DNA from: a bacterium | GTDB taxonomy: Bacteria; Myxococcota_A; Bradymonadia; UBA7976; UBA1532 | Direction of reading: 5' to 3' | Assembly: GCA_030426085.1 (NCBI GenBank) | Contig: JAUHYW010000024.1 | Span: 1-64,000 of the forward strand | Length of the DNA: 64,000 bases | Shown here: piece after piece, positions 22,025 through 27,437 of the stretch | Position numbering within the stretch: position 1 is the first letter of the stretch | Layout: each line of letters begins with the position of its first letter | Position numbers and translations under genes: made by a program | The notes under the pieces: model-generated | What the model was told of the DNA's origin: nothing | What the model saw: only the letters and a program-made list of their open reading frames with translations | Databases searched by the model: none

Positions 22025-22813
22025 ATGACCCGGCCGGTGGTGCTCGTCACCAATGATGACGGCATCCGATCCTTCTTCCTCGAGGTGCTGGTCGAGGCGC
22101 TCGAGCGCCGCTTCACCTTGCGGGTCGTCGCGCCCCTGCGCGAGCAGAGCTGGACCGGGCGCAGCTTCACCCGCCGGGGGCCGGTCACCGTCGCGCGCCA
22201 CCCCGGCCTCGGCGGGCGGGCGTGGGCGGTCGACGGGACCCCCAGCGACTGCGCCAACATCGGCCTCGACCCGGCGTTCGACCCCGGCAGCCCGCCGCCG
22301 GTGGCCGTCGTCTCGGGCATCAACCTCGGCTTCAACGTGACCCTGCCGCTGGTGCTCAGCTCGGGCACCGTGGCCGCCGCGACCGAGGGCGCGCTGGCCG
22401 GGCTGCCCGCGCTGGCCTTGTCGCAGCTCATCCCCCGAGATCGGTTCGAGGCGCTGCGGGAGACCGGCGGCCGGGGGGACGCCGCGCTGGCTCGGGATGT
22501 GCGAGCGTCGGCCGATCGAGCGGTGGCGTTCACCGAGGCCCTCATCGCCCGGGGCCGACCGGAGCGCCCGATCGTGCACAACCTCAACTTCCCGAGCGGG
22601 GTGACCGCCGAGACGCCCATCGAGCGTACCCGGCTGGGCCGCGCCTCCCTCGGCCCGTGCTTCGTGCAGGAGAAGGACGGCGTGCGCCGCTTCGGGCTCG
22701 CCCGGCGGGCGAAGACCCCACCGATGGCCGACGACACCGACTGGATGTGCCTGAAGCGAGGGCACATCAGTCACACGGTGCTGGACTACTCCACCTTGGG
22801 CGCGACGGTCTGA
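22025..22813 (+). CDS. surE: 5'/3'-nucleotidase SurE
   Basis: A 262-residue SurE-family phosphatase acting on nucleoside monophosphates, a metal enzyme of the stationary-phase survival family. Key marks are the N-terminal LVTNDDGI, which binds the metal, and SGINLGFN followed by SSGTVAAATEGAL. The start at 22025 has ggagg upstream. The 3' end overlaps the convergent histidine-kinase gene by 28 bp. In many bacteria surE lies beside pcm or nlpD; neither is present here. Confidence 0.9.
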   Translation: MTRPVVLVTNDDGIRSFFLEVLVEALERRFTLRVVAPLREQSWTGRSFTRRGPVTVARHPGLGGRAWAVDGTPSDCANIGLDPAFDPGSPPPVAVVSGINLGFNVTLPLVLSSGTVAAATEGALAGLPALALSQLIPRDRFEALRETGGRGDAALARDVRASADRAVAFTEALIARGRPERPIVHNLNFPSGVTAETPIERTRLGRASLGPCFVQEKDGVRRFGLARRAKTPPMADDTDWMCLKRGHISHTVLDYSTLGATV

Positions 22814-24357
22814 CCCTCGCCGCCGGACCGGCGGGGCAGCTCGATACACGCCTCGATCCAGCCGTCCGGCGCGGATGTCAGCCGCGCCTCGCCTCCGTGA
22901 GCCCGGGCGATGGCCCGCACGATGTACAGACCCAGGCCCAGGCCACGGCTGTTGTTGCCCCCGTCGTGCGCCCGGCGGAACGGCTCGAAGATATGGGCCA
23001 GGCGCTCGGGCGGGATGGGCTCGGCCCGATTGCGCACCGTCAGGCGCACCCGGCGCCCGTCCCCGTCGGCGTCGAGGATGAGCGGCGCGTCGGGCCGGCC
23101 GTAGCTGAGCGCGTTGGCCAGCAGGTTGCCCAGCGCCTGCACGAGCCGGTCGGCGTCGACCTCGACCGAGAGCGACTGCGGGCCCTGGACCACCACCTCC
23201 CGCTCGGGGTGGGTCACCCGGCTCTGAGCGGCGAGCTCTTCGAGGATACCCCGGGCGTCGACCGGCTCCCGCTCCCCGATCAGCTCGGCGCCGAGCTGGG
23301 TGCGGGTGTAGTCGAGCAGCGCGTCGATCATGCGCCGGCTGCGGTCGACGTTCTCCACGATCTGGGTCAGATAGCGCGCCCGGCGCTCGGCGTCGTCCCC
23401 GTGGTCGAGCAGCATGCGGGCGGCGGTGCCGATGAACCACAGCGGCGAGCGCAGGTCGTGGCCGACCACGCCCACCATCCGATCGCGGAACTCGATGAGC
23501 CGGGCCTGCTCGATCTCGCGCAGCTTGGTGTCGTGGATGTCGGTGATCGCCCCGATCCACTCCCGGCGCTCGCCGCCCTGCTGGTGCGGCCGACCGTGCA
23601 TCAGCACCCAGCGCTCCCGGCCCCGGGCGCCGATGAGGCGGCATTCGACGCGGATGGGCGAGCCGGCCTCGACCGCCGCCCGCCACTCTTCGCGGACCCG
23701 CGGTCGATCGAGCTCGATGATCGCGTCGAACAGCATGCCCGGACGCGCCGCCGAGCGCCCGGTCATCGACGTCCAGCGGGGGTTGACGAAGCGCAGTCGC
23801 CCGTTGTCGTCGCTGCGCCACACCACGTCGGGCAGCACCGCGAGCACCGTGCGGTGCACCGACAGCAGCCGCTCGCGGCCCGCCTTGGCCACCTCGAGGG
23901 CCGCCATCGCCGTCTGCAGCCGGCGGTTCTCGGAGTAGAGGGCGGTCACGTCGTCGCCGACCTGCGCGCTCGCCAGCTCGGAGCGCAGGCGCCCGATGAC
24001 CTCGGGCAGAATACGGCCGGCGGGCGGCACGAGGCGCAGGCGGACCTCGGTGCCCGACAGGTCGGACGTCAACCGGCAGTCGGCCACCAGCCGCCGGGCG
24101 CCGTCGGCCAGACCGGGATCGATCAGGCCCGAGGTGACCAGATCCAGGATCAGCGTCTCGCCCGAGCCGAGGCCGATCACCGCCTCGCCGCCCCCGGCGT
24201 CGAGCACCGCCCGGGCCACGTCCGACGCGGCCGTGGCCCAGCGGGTGCGGGTCAGCGCCCCGGCACCCACGATCTCGCTGGCCTGCTCGATGCGCTTGCG
24301 CAAGACCACCAGATCCCGCGAGGTGCGCAGCGACCAGCGCAGCATCGTCTCGATCAT
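22786..24357 (-). CDS. PAS histidine kinase with RsbT-like pseudo-domain
   Basis: A 523-residue soluble sensor kinase. Residues 1 to about 150 resemble the RsbT ATPase next door (WATAASDVARAVLDAGG against LATAASELGRNAVIHGK), but the N-box Glu and Asn are Asp and Ala and the G1 box is missing, so this part is probably inactive. A PAS domain (WRSDDNGRLRFVNPRW ... WIGAITDIHDTKLREIEQAR) follows, then HisKA with VGHDLRSP and HATPase_c with NLLANALSYG and GLGLGLYIV. Its ATG overlaps the upstream gene (ATGA), so it is last in the stressosome operon. Confidence 0.85.
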   Translation of the reverse strand: MIETMLRWSLRTSRDLVVLRKRIEQASEIVGAGALTRTRWATAASDVARAVLDAGGGEAVIGLGSGETLILDLVTSGLIDPGLADGARRLVADCRLTSDLSGTEVRLRLVPPAGRILPEVIGRLRSELASAQVGDDVTALYSENRRLQTAMAALEVAKAGRERLLSVHRTVLAVLPDVVWRSDDNGRLRFVNPRWTSMTGRSAARPGMLFDAIIELDRPRVREEWRAAVEAGSPIRVECRLIGARGRERWVLMHGRPHQQGGERREWIGAITDIHDTKLREIEQARLIEFRDRMVGVVGHDLRSPLWFIGTAARMLLDHGDDAERRARYLTQIVENVDRSRRMIDALLDYTRTQLGAELIGEREPVDARGILEELAAQSRVTHPEREVVVQGPQSLSVEVDADRLVQALGNLLANALSYGRPDAPLILDADGDGRRVRLTVRNRAEPIPPERLAHIFEPFRRAHDGGNNSRGLGLGLYIVRAIARAHGGEARLTSAPDGWIEACIELPRRSGGEGQTVAPKVE

Positions 24358-25397
24358 CGCTCGGCCTCCTCGGCCGCCAGGACGACGCACGCCGCGTCGT
24401 CGGTGCGCCGGAGATGATCCCGCAGGATGCGCCCGGCGAGCAGCGGCGGGTCGGTGCGTCGCCGGCTGCGGCGCACGCCGGCCCGCCAGCGCTCGGAGAT
24501 CCCGTCGGTGTGCACGATGAGCCGCGCGCCCGGGCCCCAGGGGTGGCTCGCCGCCCGGACCGTGCCCACCGGGGCGCCCGATCCGAGCACGCCGAACCGG
24601 GGCACCAGGGACGCCGACTCCTCGCCCCGCTCGTAGAGCGCGGCCACGTTGCCGACCCCGGCGAAGGTCAGCTCGCCCCGGCGCAGATCGATCGTCGCGA
24701 CGGTCGCCGCCGCCCCCCGGGTCCCGATCAGGCCCCGCTCGAGGTCGTCGATCATCGCCACCGGCGCCTCGGACCCGCTCTCGGCCGCGCAGCGCAGGGC
24801 CCGCTCGGCGGCCGTCGCCGCGCCGGGGCCGTGACCCAGCCCGTCGACCACGATCAGCCGGATCAGGCCCCCCAGGCAGTCGATGCGCCAGCCGTCTCCG
24901 CTCACCGACTGCCCGGGGAACGGCCGAGCCGCCACGCCCAGGCGCAGCCCGAGGGGCGGCGGCGGCCCGAGGCGGGCGAAGAGGGCGGTGCCCTCCCCGG
25001 GGCGGGTGTGCAGCGAGTGGGCGTCGGACAGCCGGCGGATTGCGCCCAGCCCGATGCCGGCGGTGCCGGTCGTCGAGAAGCCGTCGGCGAAGCACCGGGC
25101 GGGATCCTCCATACCCGGGCCCTGATCGAGCGCGAGCAGCTCGATGGCCGGGCCGATGCGCCGGGTGAGCTGCCAGCCGGTGCCCCCGTGGCGCACGACG
25201 TTGGAGGCCATCTCGGAGGCGACGATGGCCGCCTCCTCGGCGCGATGCCCCGGCCAGCCCAGGCCCTCGGCGAGCGCGCGGGTGGCCCGGCGCACCTCGC
25301 CGATGCGGCTCGGGTGGTCCAGCCAGCGCGCGGACTCGTCCAAGCTGTGCGCCCACCAGCGATCGGCCTTCACGCGTAACTCCTCGTCAACACTCAC
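24354..25397 (-). CDS. RsbT-like kinase fused to RsbX-like phosphatase
   Basis: A 347-residue fusion. The N-terminal GHKL ATPase keeps the N-box (ASEMASNVVRHGG), G1 (DQGPGMED) and G2 (TGTAGIGLGA), as in the Ser/Thr kinases RsbT and RsbW. The C-terminal half is a small PP2C-type phosphatase with metal-binding Asp in VVDGLGHG and HTDGISE, as in RsbX. One chain could thus both add and remove phosphates on STAS-domain proteins. The GTG at 25397 overlaps the stop of rsbT (GTGA). RsbX and RsbT are normally separate proteins. Confidence 0.85.
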   Translation of the reverse strand: MSVDEELRVKADRWWAHSLDESARWLDHPSRIGEVRRATRALAEGLGWPGHRAEEAAIVASEMASNVVRHGGTGWQLTRRIGPAIELLALDQGPGMEDPARCFADGFSTTGTAGIGLGAIRRLSDAHSLHTRPGEGTALFARLGPPPPLGLRLGVAARPFPGQSVSGDGWRIDCLGGLIRLIVVDGLGHGPGAATAAERALRCAAESGSEAPVAMIDDLERGLIGTRGAAATVATIDLRRGELTFAGVGNVAALYERGEESASLVPRFGVLGSGAPVGTVRAASHPWGPGARLIVHTDGISERWRAGVRRSRRRTDPPLLAGRILRDHLRRTDDAACVVLAAEEAER

Positions 25398-25792
25398 CGA
25401 CGCCAGCGGACCACGGTGATCCGGGTCCCTTCTCCGGCGCCGCTCTCGATCTGAAAGCTGTGGACCAGCCGTCGGGCACCGCCGAGGCCGAACCCCATGC
25501 TGCCGGTGGACGAGAAGCCGTCCACCAGCGCCTGCTCGATGTCGGGGATCCCCGGGCCCTCGTCCCGGAACTCCAGCCGGATGCCGGCCCCCTCGTCGAG
25601 CCGCTCGAGCGTCATGCGGCCGCCCTTCCCGTGGATCACCGCGTTGCGCCCCAGCTCGCTGGCGGCGGTGGCCAGCCGCACCGCGTCGGCGCTGCGGAAG
25701 CCGGCGGAGCGGGCGGCGGCGTGCACCGCGCGGCGGGCGTCACCGACGTCCCGCGTGGCCTTCAGCGGCCAGAACTCGCGCTCGGAGGGCAT
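25394..25792 (-). CDS. rsbT: Stressosome switch kinase RsbT
   Basis: A 132-residue GHKL-type Ser/Thr kinase. N-box (ASELGRNAVIHGKGG), G1 (DEGPGIPD) and G2 (STGSMGFGLGGARRLV) are complete and the length is normal for RsbT. In the stressosome paradigm RsbT is held by RsbR/RsbS, phosphorylates their STAS domains on stress, is released and activates a downstream partner. In Bacillus that partner is RsbU; here no RsbU is present. The start follows gagg by seven bases and lies 22 bp after rsbS. Confidence 0.9.
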   Translation of the reverse strand: MPSEREFWPLKATRDVGDARRAVHAAARSAGFRSADAVRLATAASELGRNAVIHGKGGRMTLERLDEGAGIRLEFRDEGPGIPDIEQALVDGFSSTGSMGFGLGGARRLVHSFQIESGAGEGTRITVVRWRR

Positions 25793-25814: not shown

Positions 25815-26183
25815 TCACGGGCTCTCGGCCAGCAGCGCGTGCAGGCGGGCGATCCCCCGATCGATGTCCAGCGCCGTCGAGACGCCGTCGAGCGTCATGC
25901 CCAGCTCGACGAGGGTCACCGCGACCGCCGGCCGCATGCCCACCAGCACCGCCTCGGCGCCCAGCACCCGGCTCATGGACGCGATCTGCGCCAGGATGCG
26001 GCTGAGGAACGTGTCGACCAGCTCCAGGCCGGAGATGTCGATGATGATGCCCCGGGCGCTCGACCGAGCCAGGGCCGCGCCCAGGTCTTCTTCGAGCTGC
26101 ACCGCGAGCTGGTCGTCGAGGTCGACCTGCACCGTCACGAGCAGCGCCCCCTCCAGCTCGAGGATCGGGATCCGCGGGGTCAA
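25815..26183 (-). CDS. rsbS: Stressosome STAS scaffold RsbS
   Basis: A 122-residue single STAS-domain protein. IDISGLELVDTF contains the Ser phosphorylated in RsbS (Bacillus Ser59 region), and GMRPAVAVTLVELG is the second hallmark. The start is taken as TTG at 26183, because it overlaps the rsbR stop as TTGA with ggagg upstream and no ATG or GTG gives a full-length N-terminus. It forms the core of the stressosome shell together with RsbR. Confidence 0.88.
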   Translation of the reverse strand: MTPRIPILELEGALLVTVQVDLDDQLAVQLEEDLGAALARSSARGIIIDISGLELVDTFLSRILAQIASMSRVLGAEAVLVGMRPAVAVTLVELGMTLDGVSTALDIDRGIARLHALLAESP

Positions 26184-27019
26184 TTCGCGGCGCCTCCCGA
26201 GACCAGGAGGCCGCCCCGGCGAAAGGCGAGCTTGAGCGCGTCGGACAGCCGGGCCTTGGTCACCACCTGCCCCAGGTCCACGCCGAGGTGCACCATGGTC
26301 TGGGCGATCTGGGGCCGGATGCCGCTGACGATGGCCTCGGCCCCCATCAGGCGCAGCGCGGCGACCGTCTTGAGCAGGTGATGGGCCACCTGGGTGTCGA
26401 CCGTCGGCACGCCGGTGATGTCGAGGATGACCTGCTCCGAGCGGGTCTCGACGACCGCCTCGAGGATGGTCTCGGTCACCTGCTGGGTGCGGTAGCTGTC
26501 GAGGGTGCCGATGAGCGGCACCGCCAGCACACCGTCCCACACCTGCACCACCGGCGACGACAGCTCGAGGATCTCCTCCTGCTGGCGGGCGATGACCTGC
26601 TCTTTGCGTCGGATCTGGATCTCGGCGGTGTACAGCCCCAGCCGATCGACGATCAGATCGACCCGCCAGATCACCCGGAGCATGTCGTCGGGCTCACCGC
26701 CCCGCATCACGAGCAGCCGATGCAGGGGGCGCTTGATCGACATCACGAAGAAGGCGATGTCGGCCGGGGCCTTGCCCTCGTCGAGGTGGGTGTCGACGAT
26801 GGCGTCGAGCGTCTCGCGCACCCCGGACCACGGGGCGCTGCGCACATCCTCCGGGCGGGTGTCGTCGTCGATGGACTGCCCGAGCTGCTCGATGAACGAC
26901 CGGGCCTGCAAGCGACGCTCGTGGGCCAGCTCGGGGCGGGCCCGGCTGACCCGGTCGGCGGCCTCGAGCCAGTCGTCGAGCAGCGCCTCGGCGTTCTCAC
27001 CGATGAGGTCGGAGATCAT
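26180..27019 (-). CDS. rsbR: Stressosome sensor RsbR
   Basis: A 279-residue protein (293 if the start is ATG 27061). The N-terminal half is a helical RsbR-type sensory domain (NAEALLDDWLEAADRVSRAR ...) without heme or flavin motifs that I can see. The C-terminal STAS domain is nearly textbook RsbR: DITGVPTVDT and SGIRPQIAQT contain the two Thr sites phosphorylated by RsbT. ATG 27019 has aaaggg six bases upstream; 27061 lies four bases after the receiver gene. Only one RsbR is encoded here, whereas Bacillus has several. Confidence 0.88.
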   Translation of the reverse strand: MISDLIGENAEALLDDWLEAADRVSRARPELAHERRLQARSFIEQLGQSIDDDTRPEDVRSAPWSGVRETLDAIVDTHLDEGKAPADIAFFVMSIKRPLHRLLVMRGGEPDDMLRVIWRVDLIVDRLGLYTAEIQIRRKEQVIARQQEEILELSSPVVQVWDGVLAVPLIGTLDSYRTQQVTETILEAVVETRSEQVILDITGVPTVDTQVAHHLLKTVAALRLMGAEAIVSGIRPQIAQTMVHLGVDLGQVVTKARLSDALKLAFRRGGLLVSGGAAN

Positions 27020-27065
27020 GTAGAGCCCTTTCGGAAAGTCGGTGTCGGCGGGACGTCGCATGGGA

Positions 27066-27437
27066 TCAACCGTTCGCTGCGGCCCGCCGGGCGGGCAGGT
27101 GACGCCTCAACCAGTCGGCGAGCAGCTCGACGCCGACCGGCTTGATCGCCGCGTCGAACCCGTCGGCGCGCAGATCCTCGATCGCCTCGGCGTCACCCGA
27201 GACGATGAGCACCGGCAACGACAGCTCGCGGGCGAGGCCGGCGAGGGCCCGGCCGTCGGTGCACCCCCCCAACACGAGATCGGTCACCAGCGCGCCGTAG
27301 CGCCCTTCGGCGAGGCGGGCGGCCGCGTCGGCGCCGGAGCCGCACCAGTCGACCGCGAAGCCTTCGCACTGGAGGATGTCGACGATGAGCGCGCCCATGT
27401 CGGGCATGTCGTCGACGAAGAGAACGGTATTGGACAC
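27066..27437 (-). CDS. Single-domain response regulator
   Basis: A receiver domain of 123 residues with no output domain. Acidic pocket VDD near the N-terminus, phospho-acceptor Asp in VTDLVLGG, Ser in IVSGDAE and Lys in AIKPVG are all present. The GTG at 27437 with ggggag upstream gives a normal receiver length; ATG 27476 would add 13 residues. It is the first gene of the stressosome operon, and the histidine kinase is the last, suggesting that they form one phosphotransfer pair. Confidence 0.85.
   Translation of the reverse strand: MSNTVLFVDDMPDMGALIVDILQCEGFAVDWCGSGADAAARLAEGRYGALVTDLVLGGCTDGRALAGLARELSLPVLIVSGDAEAIEDLRADGFDAAIKPVGVELLADWLRRHLPARRAAANG

Follow-up and report, generated by a model that had tools for sequence, protein, structure and literature searches.

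A stressosome operon ending in a histidine kinase gene

The window, by which we mean the whole 64,000-nucleotide stretch of DNA that was analysed, carries on its minus strand a compact cluster of genes in the order REC, RsbR, RsbS, RsbT, RsbX-like and histidine kinase (HK).

27066..27437, minus strand: REC single-domain response regulator, first gene of the cluster (PF00072, E = 3.3e-10; the start codon is a guess)
26180..27061, minus strand: RsbR, an RsbRD_N sensor domain with a STAS domain (PF14361, PF01740)
25815..26183, minus strand: RsbS, a single STAS protein (PF01740; 84% identity to its L005 counterpart)
25394..25792, minus strand: RsbT, with catalytic motifs intact (PF13581, E = 1.2e-13; motifs)
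24354..25397, minus strand: RsbX-like, a PP2C/SpoIIE phosphatase whose N-terminal RsbT-like ATPase domain is intact (PF13581, PF07228)
22786..24357, minus strand: sensor HK of 523 aa, arranged as dead RsbT domain, coiled linker, PAS, HisKA and HATPase_c

Most neighbouring genes overlap or lie a few bases apart, with a maximum spacing of 22 bases and a 4-base overlap between the HK start and the RsbX-like stop, which suggests the cluster is one operon. The genes rsbR, rsbS, rsbT and rsbX are adjacent and accompanied by an output gene, as in an RsbRSTX stressosome operon, and RsbT lies two genes upstream of the HK with the RsbX-like gene in between. The operon contains three RsbT-fold domains: one active, one phosphatase-fused and one dead. 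The REC gene still adjoins the operon in L005, and we infer that its product is a candidate phosphotransfer partner of the HK. No Rfam family matched the operon.

The open reading frame of the HK was confirmed, together with its coordinates and strand, and the HK itself is composed of the following elements.

24022..24357, minus strand: degenerate RsbT-like domain, residues 1-112 (RsbT HMM, shuffle control, AlphaFold2, RsbW structural match)
24208..24225, minus strand: N-box remnant SDVARA (SELGRN in RsbT), residues 45-50 (motif alignment)
23848..24021, minus strand: helical linker from the dead RsbT domain to PAS, residues 113-170 (AlphaFold2 helices 118-129 and 132-149, the remainder placed from the PAS start)
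23527..23856, minus strand: PAS domain, residues 168-277 (Pfam PAS families)
23296..23487, minus strand: HisKA dimerisation/phosphoacceptor domain, residues 291-354 (PF00512, E = 3e-10)
22831..23157, minus strand: HATPase_c catalytic domain of the HK, residues 401-509 (PF02518, E = 1.3e-19)

A HisKA domain with its phosphoacceptor His (H-box VVGHDLRSP) followed by HATPase_c identifies the protein as a histidine kinase. Its own catalytic G1 box is atypical, reading NRAEPI (Asp to Asn, Gly to Ala; NRGEPI in L005 and NEGEPI in L070), and the kinase activity of the window HK is therefore not certain.

RsbT ancestry and fold of the kinase N-terminus

Residues 1-152 of the HK align with the window's RsbT at 28% identity over 113 aa (BLASTP, E = 0.002), with an ATAAS block at residues 41-45 (ATAASDVARA in the HK, ATAASELGRN in RsbT); the alignment to the second half of the domain is weak by sequence. 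An HMM built from 17 RsbT genes only scores the window domain at 28.4 bits (p = 6.6e-11) and five related HK N-termini at 26-32 bits, with a concordant reverse search, while ten control HK N-termini reach at most 3.7 bits. Against 5000 composition-preserving shuffles, the real domain scores 28.7 bits and the best shuffle 7.8. Neither Pfam nor NCBIfam gave a match in residues 1-112, and a sequence profile of the domain found no significant match among PDB chains, though the structure search was clear. In the phylogeny the HK domain groups with RsbT-type rather than RsbX-type domains, several of the forks on the RsbT side being weakly supported.

The first-pass annotation had proposed structure prediction and comparison for this region, and these return a GHKL fold of the RsbW/SpoIIAB type. 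From an input alignment of 16 degenerate HK N-termini containing no RsbT, AlphaFold2 modelled residues 3-109 as strand-helix-helix-strand-strand-helix-strand-strand (mean pLDDT 90.9, pTM 0.82), with two helices of the linker (118-129 and 132-149) after it. The closest solved structure is RsbW (Z 14.6, rmsd 2.0 over 102 residues), with UsfX (Z 13.8), the RsbW domain of Rv1364c (13.5) and SpoIIAB (13.2) close behind; the range for RsbW, SpoIIAB and UsfX is 12.6-14.6. HK ATPase domains match the model at only about Z 7, and Foldseek was concordant. The domain is therefore of RsbT/RsbW type and not a second copy of the HK ATPase. Residues 136-295 of PDB 9qih, the Leptospira response regulator LvrC, also match the model, at Z 9.5 more closely than ordinary HK ATPase domains do.

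The homologues were found by RsbT models or by operon position, and the fold and sequence evidence are thus partly dependent; taken together, they make residues 1-112 almost certainly a degenerate RsbT domain. Of the earlier proposal that the first 150 residues align to RsbT, the ATAAS block and the RsbT relationship hold, but the domain stops near residue 112 and residues 113-150 belong to linker helices.

Loss of catalytic motifs and retention of Ser45 and Arg49

RsbT-type proteins have an invariant N-box Glu and Asn and invariant glycines in G1 and G2 (67/67). The first-pass reading that the HK domain has a changed N-box Glu and Asn and no G1 box is correct: Glu46 has become Asp, Asn50 has become Ala and the G1 box is replaced. 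The domain thus lacks the N-box Glu and Mg-binding Asn, and also the G1 box (DxGxG) and ATP lid of RsbT; what remains of the lid measures about 5 residues against about 17. On these motifs the domain cannot be an RsbT-type kinase. The earlier idea of a non-catalytic RsbT fold is consequently borne out in its fold, its ancestry and its loss of catalysis by the HMM, shuffles, AlphaFold2 model and motifs.

Two residues have been kept. Among the 16 degenerate HK domains tabulated, all have lost the Asn and all retain Ser45 and Arg49, bearing in mind that HMM-based detection favours sequences retaining this stretch; the four intact HK RsbT domains also keep both (4/4). Arg49 is present in 76% of RsbT-type proteins, compared to only 1/27 RsbX-fused ATPase domains of the same fold. 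Its near absence from the latter indicates that Arg49 is dispensable for the fold, and by sequence it marks RsbT-type rather than RsbX-fused ATPase domains. Retention of the pair fits a role in partner binding, although the residues could be kept for a partner other than RsbS/RsbR.

Relatives and spread

Profile searches for RsbS gave matches in 26/284 genomes of the window's phylum, 9/274 Gammaproteobacteria, 9/289 Alphaproteobacteria and 11/296 Bacteroidota; the fetched operons were then read, and the HK domain was searched separately. RsbR-RsbS-RsbT-RsbX is followed by an HK with an RsbT-like N-terminus in the phylum of the window (L005, L070, L085, L087, L088 and L127, and more weakly L133 and L134), in Alphaproteobacteria (L141, L142, L145 and L184; L143 and L144 run off their contigs), in Bacteroidota (L149-L154) and in Deinococcus radiodurans. 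Intact versions occur in two named organisms, D. radiodurans R1 (plasmid MP1, DR_RS15590, WP_010883999.1) and Sphingomonas aliaeris (WP_225883606.1), both annotated only as 'ATP-binding protein', and likewise in L141, L144, L145 and L154. Pfam detects the intact form as HATPase_c_2 plus HisKA. A DNA-pattern search of genome contigs returned only the same-genus relative L005 and unrelated HKs, and a profile made from two close rows, which were too similar, matched well only within the genus when run against the class.

At L071, L086 and L140 the HK in the same operon position has a coiled-coil N-terminus only. As these proteins carry neither an RsbT-like domain nor RsbU_N, a dedicated adaptor is not needed in every case. 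The N-terminus of the L072 HK (L072:4805-5209) scored at background and was not counted as a further copy; by eye its order of elements seems similar, and it is perhaps a copy that has decayed further. Additional kinase genes were seen at two loci. In the Bacteroidota locus L154, a REC-REC-HK gene precedes the intact RsbT-HK (L154:6269-7576), whose RsbT domain groups with stand-alone RsbTs and perhaps represents an independent fusion. In D. radiodurans, a second REC-HK (L186:6649-7884) lies directly 3' of the RsbT-HK in the stressosome operon.

The window domain falls in a clade of 15 HK domains (support 100/98), whose first branch is the intact D. radiodurans domain; the remainder comprises intact and dead Alphaproteobacteria together with a group, dead throughout, that unites the window, L070 and Bacteroidota (97/95). 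The dead or intact state changes at least three times on this tree, which was built from 135 columns and is weak in its deep forks, and we take catalysis to have been lost at least three times. A second group of HKs (L085, L087, L088, L127, L133, L134 and L184) may be a separate fusion.

Linkage to stressosomes and exchange with RsbU_N

Profile searches with the domain covered 296 Bacteroidota and 289 Alphaproteobacteria genomes and were not limited to stressosome loci. The domain was found on HK-type open reading frames in six Bacteroidota and six Alphaproteobacteria genomes, in every case (12/12) within a stressosome locus, and in these genomes none was found elsewhere. Eleven of the twelve HKs were at RsbS loci already found; the twelfth, in G656, lies in an RsbR-RsbT-RsbX-STAS-HK operon whose RsbS had fallen below threshold.

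In the gammaproteobacterial loci L122 and L123 the HK at the same operon position bears RsbU_N, the established RsbT receptor, instead. RsbU_N (PF08673) is absent from the window HK and from its whole genome, G000, and from 17/17 genomes carrying an RsbT-HK, the control giving a signal in B. subtilis only. It is present, once below cut-off, in four genomes, but these had been selected for the RsbU_N-like HK, and only the 17/17 absence is unselected. Given this exclusive gene linkage and the exchange with RsbU_N, coupling of the HK to the stressosome via its dead RsbT domain is strongly supported, and a role as a stressosome adaptor is highly probable.

A putative docking mechanism

The RsbS/RsbR shell retains RsbT and lets it go once the STAS proteins are phosphorylated; most stressosomes outside the Bacillales have no SigB cascade. 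Release of RsbT is possible without RsbS phosphorylation, less efficiently (PMC3944199), and the freed RsbT binds both RsbU_N and its linker (PMC12143880). HKs with RsbU_N are known from stressosome operons (PMC9237108, PMC12143880), but the route to downstream HKs without RsbU_N was left open, transient phosphorylation of RsbT being suggested (PMC9237108).

We propose, with a probability of roughly 0.62 for the mechanism in full, that the dead RsbT domain is a non-catalytic adaptor linking the HK to the stressosome. The HK would be the stressosome output, and its N-terminus a pseudo-RsbT that keeps the fold without nucleotide binding. In the unstressed cell the pseudo-RsbT would sit on the unphosphorylated RsbS/RsbR STAS shell alongside active RsbT. 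Upon stress, phosphorylation of the STAS proteins by RsbT, or a conformational change of the shell, would release or re-seat the adaptor, and RsbX would reset the shell. By way of the linker helices and PAS, the change would reach the HisKA/HATPase core and alter phosphotransfer, the operon's REC protein being the probable recipient. As the dead domain is unable to phosphorylate itself off the shell, its docking would report the action of RsbT and RsbX. The first-pass annotation had the domain docking in place of RsbT; because the operon retains an active RsbT, the dead copy would work beside RsbT and not replace it. Docking on the RsbS/RsbR STAS shell specifically is more likely than not, judging from homology and gene order.

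The adaptor could instead bind RsbT or the RsbX-fused ATPase in an RsbT-RsbT type of pairing, so that the HK senses released RsbT as RsbU_N does. This we regard as unlikely, even though HKs with RsbU_N at the same operon position are free-RsbT receptors by homology, the two HK types replace each other and RsbT-RsbT cross-talk has been postulated in the stressosome literature (PMC9237128); the conserved Ser and Arg belong to the N-box helix of an RsbT-type fold, and for a copy of RsbT the simpler expectation is that it retains the STAS partners of RsbT. Slightly less probable again is that the domain is a relic, now no more than a module for dimerisation or for sensing a small molecule, its linkage reflecting ancestry and not stressosome contact. 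Such a relic would account for the strong sequence divergence and for sister-operon HKs without the domain (L071, L140) or with an unrecognisable one (L072), but hardly for a fold predicted with high confidence despite catalytic loss, for Ser45 and Arg49 remaining invariant through three independent losses, or for a domain that was not found beyond stressosome loci and alternates with RsbU_N. That an unrelated domain resembles RsbT by chance, for which the blank Pfam and NCBIfam result might speak, is scarcely credible, being rejected by the shuffle test, with an HMM score far above all shuffles and other HK N-termini, best fold matches to RsbW/SpoIIAB and relatives that supply intact-to-dead intermediates.

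More widely, dead RsbT domains could form a general second adaptor class in place of RsbU_N, having arisen from RsbT-HK fusions on at least three occasions, with the STAS shell gating two-component signalling by docking alone; this wider proposal is tentative, and we hold it at a little short of even odds. A pseudo-RsbT adaptor would be a concrete answer to how stressosomes reach HKs without RsbU_N, and one testable in the laboratory, D. radiodurans carrying the intact form. It would also exemplify a switch kinase repeatedly converted to a docking module, with a two-residue signature (Ser45/Arg49).

Comparison with known systems

The first-pass annotation knew of no named architecture like this one. 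Indeed, we found no description in the open-access literature of HKs bearing an RsbT-like or dead RsbT domain (subscription reviews may list RsbT-HK fusions), but the arrangement is not unique to the window and recurs across phyla. What is new here is a dead RsbT domain as the N-terminus of a stressosome-linked HK; stressosome-linked HKs and RsbU_N adaptors were already known.

With the RsbT switch kinase (GHKL, HATPase_c_2) the window domain shares its fold, the helix-2 signature TAxSExxR and its place beside RsbR/RsbS, but it is fused to an HK and has lost the N-box Glu and Asn, the G1 box and the ATP lid. The RsbX-like phosphatase of the same operon is similar in having an RsbT-fold domain fused to an effector; that ATPase domain, however, is motif-intact, belongs to a different clade and is without Arg49. 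DR_RS15590 and WP_225883606.1 have in common with the window HK the RsbT-like domain joined to an HK, the operon order and the clade, while their RsbT domains retain all ATP-binding motifs. The RsbU_N HKs likewise are the last gene of an RsbR-S-T-X operon and place an N-terminal adaptor and helical linker ahead of HisKA/HATPase; their adaptor is the RsbT-binding four-helix RsbU_N, whereas that of the window is a copy of RsbT itself, and the two were never found together in one genome here.
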